DNA from: Parapedobacter luteus | Lineage (GTDB): Bacteria; Bacteroidota; Bacteroidia; Sphingobacteriales; Sphingobacteriaceae | Direction: 5' to 3' | DNA: 64,000 bases | Assembly (NCBI RefSeq): GCF_900168055.1 | Contig: NZ_FUYS01000004.1 | Coordinates: 248,001-312,000 of the forward strand | In this document: one piece after another, positions 51,634 to 56,674 of the stretch | How the letters are laid out: each line of letters starts with the position of its first letter | Numbering within the stretch: the stretch's first letter is position 1 | The notes under the pieces: model-generated | What the model was told of the DNA's origin: nothing | Databases searched by the model: none | Seen by the model: the letters and a program-made list of their open reading frames with translations, nothing else | Position numbers and translations under genes: made by a program

Positions 51634-53040
51634 ATGCAATACGACGTCATAGTAATCGGTAGCGGGCCCGGTGGGTATGTGGCTGCTATCCGTTGCGCAC
51701 AATTGGGCTTAAAAACAGCTGTTATCGAAAAATACAACACCTTTGGTGGCACCTGCCTTAACGTAGGATGTATCCCGTCAAAGGCGTTATTGGACTCGTC
51801 CGAACATTATCACAATGCCGCCAAGCACTTCGGTGCCCATGGCATCAACTTGAGCAACCTTCAGGTAGACATGAAGCAAATGATGGCTCGGAAGAGCGAT
51901 GTCATTGCCCAAAACGTAGCGGGCATCGAATTTCTGTTCAAGAAGAATAAAATCGACAGCTTCACCGGGGTGGGTTCCTTTGTCGATAAAAACACCGTTA
52001 AGGTGACGAAGAGCGACGGCGCAACCGAGCAGATTACGGCGAAGAACGTAATCATAGCCACGGGGTCAAAACCCACGGCACTGCCCTTCCTTCCGGTAGA
52101 CAAAAAACGGATCATTACCTCTACCGAAGCGCTGACGCTTACCGAAGTACCTAATCACCTCATCGTCATTGGCGGCGGAGTCATCGGGCTGGAACTTGGC
52201 TCGGTCTACGCCCGCCTGGGGGCCAAGGTATCCGTGGTAGAATACGAAAAATCCATCATCCCAACCATGGACGGGGGCCTGGGCAAAGAATTACAACGCG
52301 TCTTGAAGAAATCGCTTGGCATGGAGTTCTTTCTGGGTCACAAAGTTACAGGCGCTACCGCCAAAGGCAAAAAGGTAACCGTCACCGCGGAGAGCCCGAA
52401 AGGAGAAGCCGTGAAATGGGAAGGCGACTACTGTATTGTAGCGGTGGGCCGCACAGCCTACACCGAAGGATTAGGCTTGGAAAATATCGGCATCACACTG
52501 GAGGAACGTGGAAAAAAAGTCCCCGTAAACGAACACTTGGAGACTTCCGTGCAGGGCGTATATGCCATTGGCGATGTTATCAAGGGAGCCATGCTTGCCC
52601 ATAAGGCCGAAGATGAAGGTGTTTTCGTAGCCGAACACATCGCGGGCCAGAAACCCCACATCGACTATAACCTTATTCCGGGGGTCGTCTATACTTGGCC
52701 TGAAGTAGCCAGTGTAGGAAAAACCGAAGAACAGCTCAAGGCTGCGGGCCATGCGTACAAGACCGGCTCCTTCCCATTCAAAGCCAGTGGGCGCGCAAAG
52801 GCCAGCGGCGATACGGATGGATTTGTCAAAGTGCTGGCTGACGCATCGACCGATGAAGTGCTCGGTGTACACATGATAGGACCGCGTGCCGCAGACATGA
52901 TTGCAGAGGCAGCCGTAGCAATGGAATACCGCGCATCGGCCGAAGACATCGGCCGGATCTGCCATGCGCATCCCACTTTTACCGAAGCATTTAAGGAAGC
53001 TTCCCTTGCCGCTACCGCCAATAGGCCCATACACATGTAA
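51634..53040 (+). CDS. lpdA: Dihydrolipoyl dehydrogenase
   Basis: E3 subunit that reoxidises lipoamide for 2-oxoacid dehydrogenases or the glycine system. 468 residues with the FAD loop VIGSGPGGYVAAIRCAQLG, redox disulphide GGTCLNVGCIPSK, NAD loop VIGGGVIGLELGSVYARLG, the FAD-binding YAIGDV and the catalytic His-Glu pair in HAHPTFTEA. Sequence type is that of the classical E3 of 2-oxoglutarate dehydrogenase. A second E3-like gene lies at 54038. A long hairpin follows the stop. Confidence 0.95.
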   Translation: MQYDVIVIGSGPGGYVAAIRCAQLGLKTAVIEKYNTFGGTCLNVGCIPSKALLDSSEHYHNAAKHFGAHGINLSNLQVDMKQMMARKSDVIAQNVAGIEFLFKKNKIDSFTGVGSFVDKNTVKVTKSDGATEQITAKNVIIATGSKPTALPFLPVDKKRIITSTEALTLTEVPNHLIVIGGGVIGLELGSVYARLGAKVSVVEYEKSIIPTMDGGLGKELQRVLKKSLGMEFFLGHKVTGATAKGKKVTVTAESPKGEAVKWEGDYCIVAVGRTAYTEGLGLENIGITLEERGKKVPVNEHLETSVQGVYAIGDVIKGAMLAHKAEDEGVFVAEHIAGQKPHIDYNLIPGVVYTWPEVASVGKTEEQLKAAGHAYKTGSFPFKASGRAKASGDTDGFVKVLADASTDEVLGVHMIGPRAADMIAEAAVAMEYRASAEDIGRICHAHPTFTEAFKEASLAATANRPIHM

Positions 53041-53976: not shown

Positions 53977-54037
53977 TAGCCACCGTATTTTGATTGGACA
54001 ACACAAAGTGAATCAATCTCAAGAAACAATTAACTAT

Positions 54038-55426
54038 ATGAACTACGACATCATTGTAATCGGGAGCGGGCCAGGTGGGTATGTAGCCGCCATCAGGGCT
54101 TCCCAGCTCGGCTTTAAAACCGCTATTGTGGAACGGGAATCCCTGGGTGGTATCTGCCTTAATTGGGGATGTATTCCCACCAAAGCACTACTCAAAAGTG
54201 CCCAGGTATTTGAATACCTAAACCACGCTGAGGACTACGGTATTAAGGTAAACGGCGGTGAGGCAGATTTCGGCGCTATCATTAAACGTAGCCGGGGTGT
54301 CGCCGATGGCATGAGCAAGGGCATTCAGTTTCTGATGAAAAAGAACAAGATTGACGTGATCATGGGTACAGCCAAAATTAAAAAAGGCGGCAAGGTAGAA
54401 GTGAAGGATGCAGAGGGAGCCACAAAGGAGTATAGCGCTAAGCATACCATATTGGCTACAGGTGCACGCTCGCGCGAGTTGCCCGCCCTGAAGCAAGACG
54501 GCAAACGAATCATCGGGTACCGCCAAGCCATGAGTCTCGAAAAACAGCCTAAATCGTTGGTCGTAGTCGGGTCCGGCGCTATCGGTGTCGAGTTTGCTTA
54601 TTTTTACAACGCCATCGGCACCAAGGTAACCATTGTGGAGTTCCTTGATCGCATCGTACCCGTGGAAGACGAAGAGATATCCAAGCAGCTGGAGCGCAGC
54701 CTGAAAAAGGCAGGGATAACGATACTTACCAGTGCGGAAGTACAAGCTGTGGACACATCAAATGAACTGAGCAAGGTACAGATCAAAACCGCAAAGGGGA
54801 CCGAAACCATCGAGGCGGAAGTCGTGTTATCCGCGGTAGGTATTACGCCAAATATCGAAAATATAGGCTTGGAAGAAGTGGGCGTTAAAACGGATAAGGG
54901 CCGTGTTGTGGTAGACGATTTCTATAAAACCAACATCGACGGCGTATACGCCATAGGCGATATTGTCAAAGGCCAGGCGTTAGCCCATGTGGCGTCAGCA
55001 GAAGGCATCACATGTGTCGAAAAGATAAAAGGACTGGATGTTTCACCCATTAACTATAACAACATCCCCGGCTGCACCTACTGCTCACCTGAAATTGCAT
55101 CGGTAGGCTACACGGAGAAGGCGGCGAAAGAAGCAGGTTATGAAATAAAAGTAGGCAAATTCCCGTTCTCCGCGTCTGGGAAGGCCAGTGCTGCGGGTGC
55201 GAAGGATGGTTTTGTCAAGGTCATCTTCGATGCCAAATATGGTGAATTTCTGGGAGCCCACATGATTGGTGCCAACGTTACCGAGATGATCGCCGAAGTG
55301 GTGGTAGCTCGCAAACTGGAGACCACCGGGCACGAAATTATCAAAGCTGTACATCCGCATCCCACCATGAGTGAAGCTATCATGGAAGCCGCGGCAGATG
55401 CTTACGGCGAAGTGATCCATTTATAA
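54038..55426 (+). CDS. lpdA: Dihydrolipoyl dehydrogenase (second copy, PDH-type)
   Basis: 462 residues with FAD loop VIGSGPGGYVAAIRASQLG, disulphide GGICLNWGCIPTK, NAD loop VVGSGAIGVEFAYFYNAIG, YAIGDIVKGQAL and HPHPTMSEA. The CLNWGC variant is typical of the pyruvate-dehydrogenase-linked group. It differs clearly from the copy at 51634, so the two probably serve different complexes. The ATG at 54038 is chosen (MNYDIIVIGSG); upstream codons up to 53990 overlap the promoter. Confidence 0.94.
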   Translation: MNYDIIVIGSGPGGYVAAIRASQLGFKTAIVERESLGGICLNWGCIPTKALLKSAQVFEYLNHAEDYGIKVNGGEADFGAIIKRSRGVADGMSKGIQFLMKKNKIDVIMGTAKIKKGGKVEVKDAEGATKEYSAKHTILATGARSRELPALKQDGKRIIGYRQAMSLEKQPKSLVVVGSGAIGVEFAYFYNAIGTKVTIVEFLDRIVPVEDEEISKQLERSLKKAGITILTSAEVQAVDTSNELSKVQIKTAKGTETIEAEVVLSAVGITPNIENIGLEEVGVKTDKGRVVVDDFYKTNIDGVYAIGDIVKGQALAHVASAEGITCVEKIKGLDVSPINYNNIPGCTYCSPEIASVGYTEKAAKEAGYEIKVGKFPFSASGKASAAGAKDGFVKVIFDAKYGEFLGAHMIGANVTEMIAEVVVARKLETTGHEIIKAVHPHPTMSEAIMEAAADAYGEVIHL

Positions 55427-55564: not shown

Positions 55565-55572
55565 TATATTTG
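55565..55572 (+). promoter_or_regulatory. -7 element of the actin-like gene
   Basis: TATATTTG, exact TAnnTTTG, 22 bp before the ATG at 55595. It fixes the N-terminus of that gene. Confidence 0.55.
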
Positions 55573-55594: not shown

Positions 55595-56674
55595 ATGGCA
55601 ACAAAATTCCTAAGTATTCCGAGTGTTATCGAACGACATGACAAACCCTTAATGCAGCTCACTTCACCCCTGGAAAAGCGCATCCAGCTATTTGAAAGCG
55701 GTAGCGGTTTTTTGGTTGGTGAACTGGCGTTGTCCCAAGGGCATGCCCCTTACCGCAATATCAACAGTTCGCCTGCCGATTTGGATTACCAACTACTGGC
55801 GAAGACAGGGCTGCTGTTGGCCTCGGGGGCCAAGTCAGGGGAGCTTGTCGTCACGACGGGGTTTCCATCAGCAGTCTATGAACTGTTCAAGCAACAAGCA
55901 GAGAAATTCTTCGCCGTGCGCGACGTCATCACGGAATATAACAGCGATACGCTGAATGGCGGTGGCCGGAGCCGCGTGCAACTGACCATCTCGCACCTGG
56001 AAGTCATGTCCGAAATCATGGGCTGCATTACCGCCGTTCGAAAAGGTCCCTTAGCGGATGACGGCAATTTCTTCATCGTGAGCTTGGGCTACGGCACCTG
56101 CGAAACTGCGTTAAGTACTGCCGAAGGTCCGATCGCCCGGACATGTGTCAGCGTCCCTGGACTTAGGCACGCTGTCAACACGCTTTACGACGAGCTGACA
56201 GCAAGCTACTACCTATCCATGAAAAACGAACACATGATCAACCAGAGCTTCCAACGCGGCGACATGGTCATTGGCCGCAAGCGTATGAGCCTATTAGGTG
56301 CAAGGAGTACGCACCTGGCAAGCTATTACAATGAGATCGTCTCTCCGGCCATGCGAAAAGCGTTCACCGACACCGATTTCGAAAAAACCAATCGGTTATA
56401 TTTGGTCGGCGGAGGGGCGCGGTACCCGGAATTGGTAGCACACTTCAAGCAGGAGTTCAATGAAGTACTTGATGTCATTGTTCCTGAGGGCGCTGAAAAT
56501 TTTGCCGCGTTGGGCTATTACCTACGATCGGCCTTGTGGTGTGGTCCAAACCACATCGAGCGTGCAGTAGGGCTCGATATCGGCAATGCTTATACCGTCA
56601 TATCTACTTATGAAGCGGATAAGCCCGTAAACCAACACGTGGAGGCACAATCGCCGGTGTTCATGGAAGAATAA
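55595..56674 (+). CDS. Actin-like (ParM/Alp-type) ATPase-fold protein with the phosphate-1 motif at its C-terminus
   Basis: A 359-residue protein. The N-terminus (FLSIPSVIER, then GFLVGELALSQG at about 38 and VVTTGFPSAVYELF at about 84) matches the part of ParM/Alp proteins that comes after the first beta hairpin. A phosphate-2-like segment IVSLGYGTCET has Ser163 where Asp is usual. The adenosine motif YLVGGGARYPEL is at 269-280. A typical phosphate-1 strand, VGLDIGNAYTVIST, is at 325-338, the end of the protein rather than the start. In-frame stops are found upstream at about 55518 and no other start lies between, so nothing is missing in front. Filament formation and partners are unknown; there is no plasmid-partition context. 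Confidence 0.72.
   Translation: MATKFLSIPSVIERHDKPLMQLTSPLEKRIQLFESGSGFLVGELALSQGHAPYRNINSSPADLDYQLLAKTGLLLASGAKSGELVVTTGFPSAVYELFKQQAEKFFAVRDVITEYNSDTLNGGGRSRVQLTISHLEVMSEIMGCITAVRKGPLADDGNFFIVSLGYGTCETALSTAEGPIARTCVSVPGLRHAVNTLYDELTASYYLSMKNEHMINQSFQRGDMVIGRKRMSLLGARSTHLASYYNEIVSPAMRKAFTDTDFEKTNRLYLVGGGARYPELVAHFKQEFNEVLDVIVPEGAENFAALGYYLRSALWCGPNHIERAVGLDIGNAYTVISTYEADKPVNQHVEAQSPVFMEE

Follow-up and report, generated by a model that had tools for sequence, protein, structure and literature searches.

An apparently circularly permuted actin-like protein family of Bacteroidota and its frequent bactofilin neighbours

The locus examined here raises the question of whether an actin-like protein can carry its phosphate-1 (P1) hairpin C-terminally rather than N-terminally. 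The window, a stretch of 64,000 nucleotides from the 4.83 Mb genome of Parapedobacter luteus, contains a plus-strand open reading frame of 359 residues (55595..56674) that the first-pass annotation described as a permuted actin-like ATPase. The frame and the motif places given there were all recovered: PSVIER lies at residues 9-14, VGELA at 41-45, the adenosine motif VGGGA at 271-275 (56405..56419, +) and the P1 motif VGLDIGNAYTVIST at 325-338, and Ser163 sits within FFIVSLGYGT. The gene was assigned by a match to the Pfam profile ALP_N (PF17989), by same-genus homologues, which are present in four other Parapedobacter genomes, and by a confidently predicted actin-like fold; the NCBIfam models gave no match to the protein. 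The ALP_N score is 35.3 bits against a curated cut-off of 26.3 bits, and the match covers profile positions 18-145 only. It corresponds to residues 5-140 (55607..56014, +), a region that includes PSVIER, VGELA and TGFP and lacks the first strand hairpin.

The simplest explanation, a missed N-terminus, is ruled out by two observations: the in-frame open stretch upstream of the ATG is 24 codons long and devoid of a P1 motif, and P1 is C-terminal throughout the family. Indeed, the motif G-[LIMV]-D-[ILMV]-G-N is found in exactly one copy, beyond residue 300, in 53/53 family ORFs, with G326, D328, G330 and N331 invariant, and none of the 53 loci, all from the Bacteroidota searched, has an ordinary N-terminal P1. 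The first-pass annotation had also relied on a promoter element to exclude a missed start, and this part of its argument carries less weight. The octamer TATATTTG (55565..55572, +), possibly a Bacteroidota -7 box, does lie 22 bp 5' of the start codon, but the window has six copies of it, where chance would give 3.1 on average, and 9 of 100 shuffles reach six, so that it is weak evidence when taken alone. A scan for sigma-70-type promoters found none, and the sigma-70 consensus says little in Bacteroidota.

If the chain is permuted, moving the hairpin back to the front should restore the missing part of the profile match. When the last 26 core residues were shifted to the front, with residues 1-4 and 343-359 left off, ALP_N scored 46.5 bits, up from 35.3, and the match now began at profile position 1. 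Two relatives treated in the same way gained as well, one going from 40.7 to 51.4 bits and the other from 50.8 to 60.0 bits. In a shortened construct, the true hairpin gave 45.9 bits, whereas three scrambled hairpins, made by hand with a composition identical to the real one, gave 35.1, 35.2 and 35.5 bits, and another piece of the protein 34.2 bits.

Profile comparisons with MreB (sequences from 17 genomes) and DnaK, which served as references of normal order, led in the same direction. In its native order, the family profile aligned by hhalign with MreB in three pieces, columns 265-304 matching 299-336, columns 321-332 matching 26-37 and columns 130-177 matching 144-190; the order of the MreB-matching pieces is thus rotated in the family profile. 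Taken singly these pieces are weak, with E-values of 3.1e-5, 0.0011 (P1) and 0.0041 (P2, phosphate-2) and hhalign probabilities of 73, 21 and 8%. Against DnaK, the best piece placed columns 321-336 on 5-20, and a further one columns 248-318 on 312-382. The P1 piece disappeared in 6/6 column scrambles against both references, whereas the other MreB pieces persisted. Rotation of the whole profile brought no gain in the MreB top score (44.0 to 43.9), which belongs to a separate local piece, and lifted that for DnaK from 33.6 to 35.1. When solved structures were searched with a profile, the C-terminal piece aligned with the N-terminal P1 in four of the five displayed alignments, all of them Hsp70/BiP chains, although these P1 pieces score only 0.2-1.9 bits; the fifth, a ParM chain, spans 38-142 alone, without a P1 piece. 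The family shares with Hsp70/DnaK and MreB a common superfamily and local matches to the P1, P2 and adenosine segments, but it differs from them in order, is distant in sequence and lacks the P2 Asp present in MreB.

Structure prediction adds a further layer. AlphaFold with 28 sequences gave a pLDDT of 88.8 and a pTM of 0.88, the five models ranging from 87.4 to 88.8, and it confidently predicted two strands, 324-329 and 333-339, for the C-terminal P1 hairpin (56564..56611, +), a block with pLDDT 92-95. With nine sequences, the best model reached 81.0 and the remaining four 35-55; the hairpin strands were present here too. The C-terminal tail, residues 343-359 (56621..56671, +), has pLDDT below 50 and is predicted to be disordered. 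The Foldseek list was headed by Ta0583, an actin homologue from archaea (E 5.5e-15, TM 0.66 by query); a clostridial ParM and, at rank 9, the cyanobacterial CorM were other leading matches. The models thus predict with confidence an actin-like fold, that of the actin superfamily (ASKHA).

One could still argue that no permutation took place, the first hairpin having been lost and the C-terminal GLDIGN stretch being a chance or unrelated sequence. What can be said for it is that the case concerns one short motif, that the individual profile pieces are weak and that we infer the place of the hairpin in the three-dimensional actin fold from sequence comparison. Yet a chance stretch would hardly be found in 53/53 proteins or be predicted as two strands in such a confident block, and its transfer to the front regains ALP_N positions 1-17, worth about 11 bits, which scrambles fail to do; nor would its alignment to MreB and DnaK be expected to vanish on scrambling. 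We regard this loss scenario as extremely improbable. Another reading keeps the permutation but lets the C-terminal hairpin be swapped between subunits, each completing the actin fold of its neighbour, so that the permutation drives assembly. Nothing supports it directly, though the monomer models are compatible with it; all five of these models are confident as monomers, hairpin included, and we consider such a swap improbable. The circular permutation put forward by the first-pass annotation is thus supported by the ALP_N gain, the rotated MreB pieces and the scramble controls: as judged from sequence, the protein is a circularly permuted member of the actin superfamily, closest to ParM/Alp, with the P1 hairpin last and the remaining order as usual.

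To place this architecture, its distribution was surveyed. Of 60 close genomes, five contained relatives, as did 23 of 395 from the phylum, 17 of 300 from the order, and 24 of 195 and 5 of 197 from two other classes; the draws overlap and every tally counts its own centre genome, the last two also taking in three genomes with fragments only (G388, G736 and G839), which were excluded from the reading of loci. The 53 loci include close relatives, for example two with identical proteins (L086 and L094), while the Olivibacter locus, met twice (L013, L087), was counted once. They span ten family codes, the S. alkalisoli locus being without a code, and the family is present in three classes of Bacteroidota. 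Both the permutation and the P2 change described below are conserved across these three classes and are thus not accounted for by a sequencing error or by a missed start. A search of 198 genomes of the phylum with ALP_N gave matches in six, all of them genes of the permuted family, and revealed no close relative of normal order; the sensitivity of this search is limited, as it missed the window genome although the protein of that genome scores above the cut-off. When part of a solved ParM was used in tblastn to look for normal-order Alps, a single unannotated match in a phage resulted, which was left unused. Finally, an origin in a plasmid, phage or virus was rejected, since no relative emerged when phages and plasmids were searched by tblastn with the window protein and with a distant member, or when viral contigs were scanned with the family alignment.

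In the active site, the P1, P2 and adenosine motifs can all be aligned to MreB, and D328 of P1, E140, G165, G167, E170 and the adenosine glycines G272 and G273 are invariant in 53/53 proteins. In the hhalign alignment, Glu140 (56012..56014, +) pairs with the Glu of MreB EPMAAA and Glu170 with that of GGTTE. The P2 motif FFIVSLGYGTCE (residues 159-170; 56069..56104, +), aligned to VDIGGGTTE of MreB, carries Ser163 in place of the Asp, a change that the first-pass annotation had pointed out and that extends to the whole family: position 163 is Ser in 48 proteins, Gly in four and Asn in one, and the Asp is missing in 53/53. Hsp70 and ParM that lack the P2 Asp hydrolyse their nucleotide more slowly and may still bind it. 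The chain probably folds into a whole actin-like domain; by this precedent, it would bind ATP-Mg and hydrolyse it slowly or not at all, which would suit a nucleotide-gated adaptor or switch better than a fast treadmilling motor.

The surroundings of the family genes suggest a partner for such a switch. At 30/53 loci, a gene for a bactofilin, a protein of the cytoskeleton, lies directly downstream on the same strand, at a distance of -29 to 440 bp. A bactofilin is found within 1.3 kb at 35/53 loci and is missing from that range at 18/53. Genomes contain 0-4 bactofilin matches (50 genomes), so that adjacency by chance would be rare. Pfam PF04519 confirmed 19 of the 30 linked bactofilins above its cut-off (L056 and 18 others); the other 11 were identified by our own bactofilin profile alone, built from the first set of bactofilins found, with a lowest score of 29 bits.

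The C-terminal residue is aromatic in each of the 30 directly downstream bactofilins (Trp in 25, Tyr in three and Phe in two), whereas this is the case for only 3 of 47 unlinked bactofilins from genomes with and without the family (1 Trp, 2 Phe; Fisher p 2.6e-18, with relatedness ignored). The unlinked set excludes L127, located 1.2 kb from a family gene, and does not contain three weak PF04519 places (L161, L162) that our profile missed. The linked proteins carry a long polar linker before the aromatic end: the median number of residues after the bactofilin domain is 72 in 31 tailed proteins, including one encoded at 1012 bp (L106), versus 12.5 in 58 others. The tailed pair is present in nine of the ten family codes. 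The single unlinked bactofilin with a terminal Trp (L159) ends in HFW, and its genome also holds a linked tailed pair.

Some family members also adjoin M23 peptidase and bactofilin genes, as in known bactofilin-M23 modules, but the directly downstream bactofilin of the family is a second, tailed kind. Among the 47 unlinked bactofilins, an M23-type ORF shares the stretch with 40, and 44 have no aromatic end. In two Parapedobacter genomes (G005 and G003; loci L060 and L061), a second family member, 37-40% identical, lies between an untailed and a WW-ended bactofilin, and at L061 an M23 peptidase gene is also nearby. Three other loci (L055, L057 and L058) show the cluster M23, permuted actin, TPR protein and bactofilin, the last without an aromatic end.

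A different arrangement is observed at 4/53 loci (L082, L084, L090 and L092), where a receiver-domain protein adjoins the family gene on the upstream side and there is no bactofilin. A KRWW end is present at all four; at L092 (10294-11060) the receiver part and the KRWW tail are split over two ORFs, unlike at the other three. The cluster order is conserved, the receiver protein being followed by the permuted actin, a protein of about 360 residues and a family 2 glycosyltransferase; at L084, where the last two were tested, the former was HEAT-like below the cut-off. In the tree of the 53 proteins, midpoint-rooted for drawing only, a single branch with support 100 separates the four receiver-linked rows. 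With neither a bactofilin within 1.3 kb nor an adjacent receiver-domain protein, 14/53 loci remain; seven loci outside the window clade and the receiver group are bactofilin-free, and four more have a bactofilin that is not directly downstream. Three loci sharing one family code (L051, L110 and L111) have no bactofilin near; there the family gene is preceded by a protein of about 1240 residues, pentapeptide-repeat-like by eye, and followed by one of about 1170 residues.

Since the same kind of end occurs on two unrelated partners, a bactofilin and a receiver protein, it looks like a docking peptide. Such a mode of recognition has precedents: the tail of FtsZ binds FtsA and that of ParR binds ParM. 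By analogy, the bactofilin may dock on the permuted protein through its aromatic end. The proposed logic resembles that of FtsA and the FtsZ C-terminal peptide, in which a polymer protein with a long linker docks a short end on an actin-like protein, although here the polymer would be a bactofilin instead of a tubulin, the fold is permuted and the interaction is putative. The resulting complex could position or regulate bactofilin polymers and, in some lineages, also the neighbouring M23 cell-wall peptidase.

Passages of a study on Myxococcus (PMC12448750) describe a client, PadC, bound to the long unstructured C-terminal tail of the bactofilin BacP, a likeness to the arrangement proposed here; the BacP motif given there, KKKVVVKK, has no terminal aromatic residue. 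The same study states that most bactofilins have much shorter and poorly conserved tails than BacP, that bactofilin assembly needs no nucleotides and that the contact between bactofilins and their clients is poorly understood. Among the papers found by searching an open-access library, no title or opening of an abstract describes a natural permuted actin or an actin-like partner of bactofilins; the record PMC7203096 combines the terms actin, bactofilin and permutation.

Could the protein instead be an ordinary ParM-type filament in all but its permutation, one that transports a cargo such as DNA or a complex, and could co-transcription with the adjacent bactofilin gene be incidental? The family has in common with ParM/Alp an ALP_N score above the gathering threshold, the adenosine glycines and the top Foldseek matches, and the closeness to the filaments of Ta0583 and ParM, the retention of Glu140, P1 and the adenosine motif, and the 18 loci with no bactofilin within 1.3 kb all fit this alternative. 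It sits poorly, however, with the failure of our searches to find a plasmid, phage or viral home, with the family-wide loss of the P2 Asp and with a tailed bactofilin downstream at 30/53 loci from nine family codes; the C-terminal hairpin further sets the family apart from ParM/Alp. We therefore judge an ordinary filament unlikely. As more than half of the relatives lie directly upstream of an aromatic-ended bactofilin, a bactofilin adaptor or switch is favoured over a segregation filament, and the overall explanation that we find probable, with moderate confidence, is a permuted, slowly hydrolysing actin-like adaptor or switch partnered with a tailed bactofilin. A more elaborate version is a two-component cytoskeleton, in which the nucleotide state, acting through the aromatic docking peptide, would control bactofilin assembly and the adjacent peptidase, and in a side branch a receiver-domain protein with a peptide of this kind would have taken the place of bactofilin, coupling the system to signalling and to a glycosyltransferase; we offer it tentatively only.

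The window locus itself departs from the bactofilin arrangement. Its gene is flanked by a dihydrolipoamide dehydrogenase gene and an opposite-strand LacI-type regulator, and the same two neighbours are found at four other Parapedobacter loci. Two dihydrolipoamide dehydrogenase-like genes, assigned to one cluster, are in fact present (51634-53040 and 53990-55426, both +), separated by two small ORFs; the second, the one on which Pfam was run, stops 168 bp short of the permuted actin gene. The tree places the window in a group of eight, the other members being four Parapedobacter, S. alkalisoli, one further genome and Olivibacter; none has an adjacent tailed bactofilin. Seven of these eight rows have no nearby bactofilin, and in the eighth, Olivibacter, the family gene adjoins an M23 peptidase and an untailed bactofilin. 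The directly downstream aromatic-ended bactofilin that marks 30/53 family loci is thus absent from the window locus and throughout its clade. The only bactofilin match in the window genome has an M23 gene beside it and lacks an aromatic end. In that genome, a terminal Trp-Trp pattern matches 134 places and the reversed pattern 110, and no convincing Trp-Trp-ended partner was found among the 100 of the 134 places examined; two WW-ended frames among these (L241 and L314) were judged spurious by eye.

We propose that the window gene is an orphan of the tailed-bactofilin system in its own genome. It may even have been repurposed to act on a target other than a bactofilin, perhaps via its C-terminal tail, which is longer than in other members: from P1 to the end the chain measures 30-42 residues in the window clade versus 15-32 elsewhere, wherever the motif script located P1, and the five Parapedobacter tails have F-L or F-M near the terminus. 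The eight-member clade without an adjacent tailed bactofilin and the untailed state of the only bactofilin of the window genome are in line with such a change of target, whereas the Olivibacter relative, located beside a bactofilin and an M23 gene, speaks against it. So does the 81-91% identity among Parapedobacter species, which shows that the protein is under constraint, though not for which function. Repurposing is possible, if somewhat doubtful in our estimation.

Few proteins have been studied as much as those with the actin fold, and a conserved permuted family would show that this fold tolerates, without loss, a cut placed between its last helix and first strand, providing a natural test of the part played by P1 in nucleotide binding and in folding. 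Of possibly greater importance is the link to bactofilins: with a putative nucleotide-binding partner encoded next door and a candidate docking peptide, the question of how bactofilins contact their clients would become directly testable.
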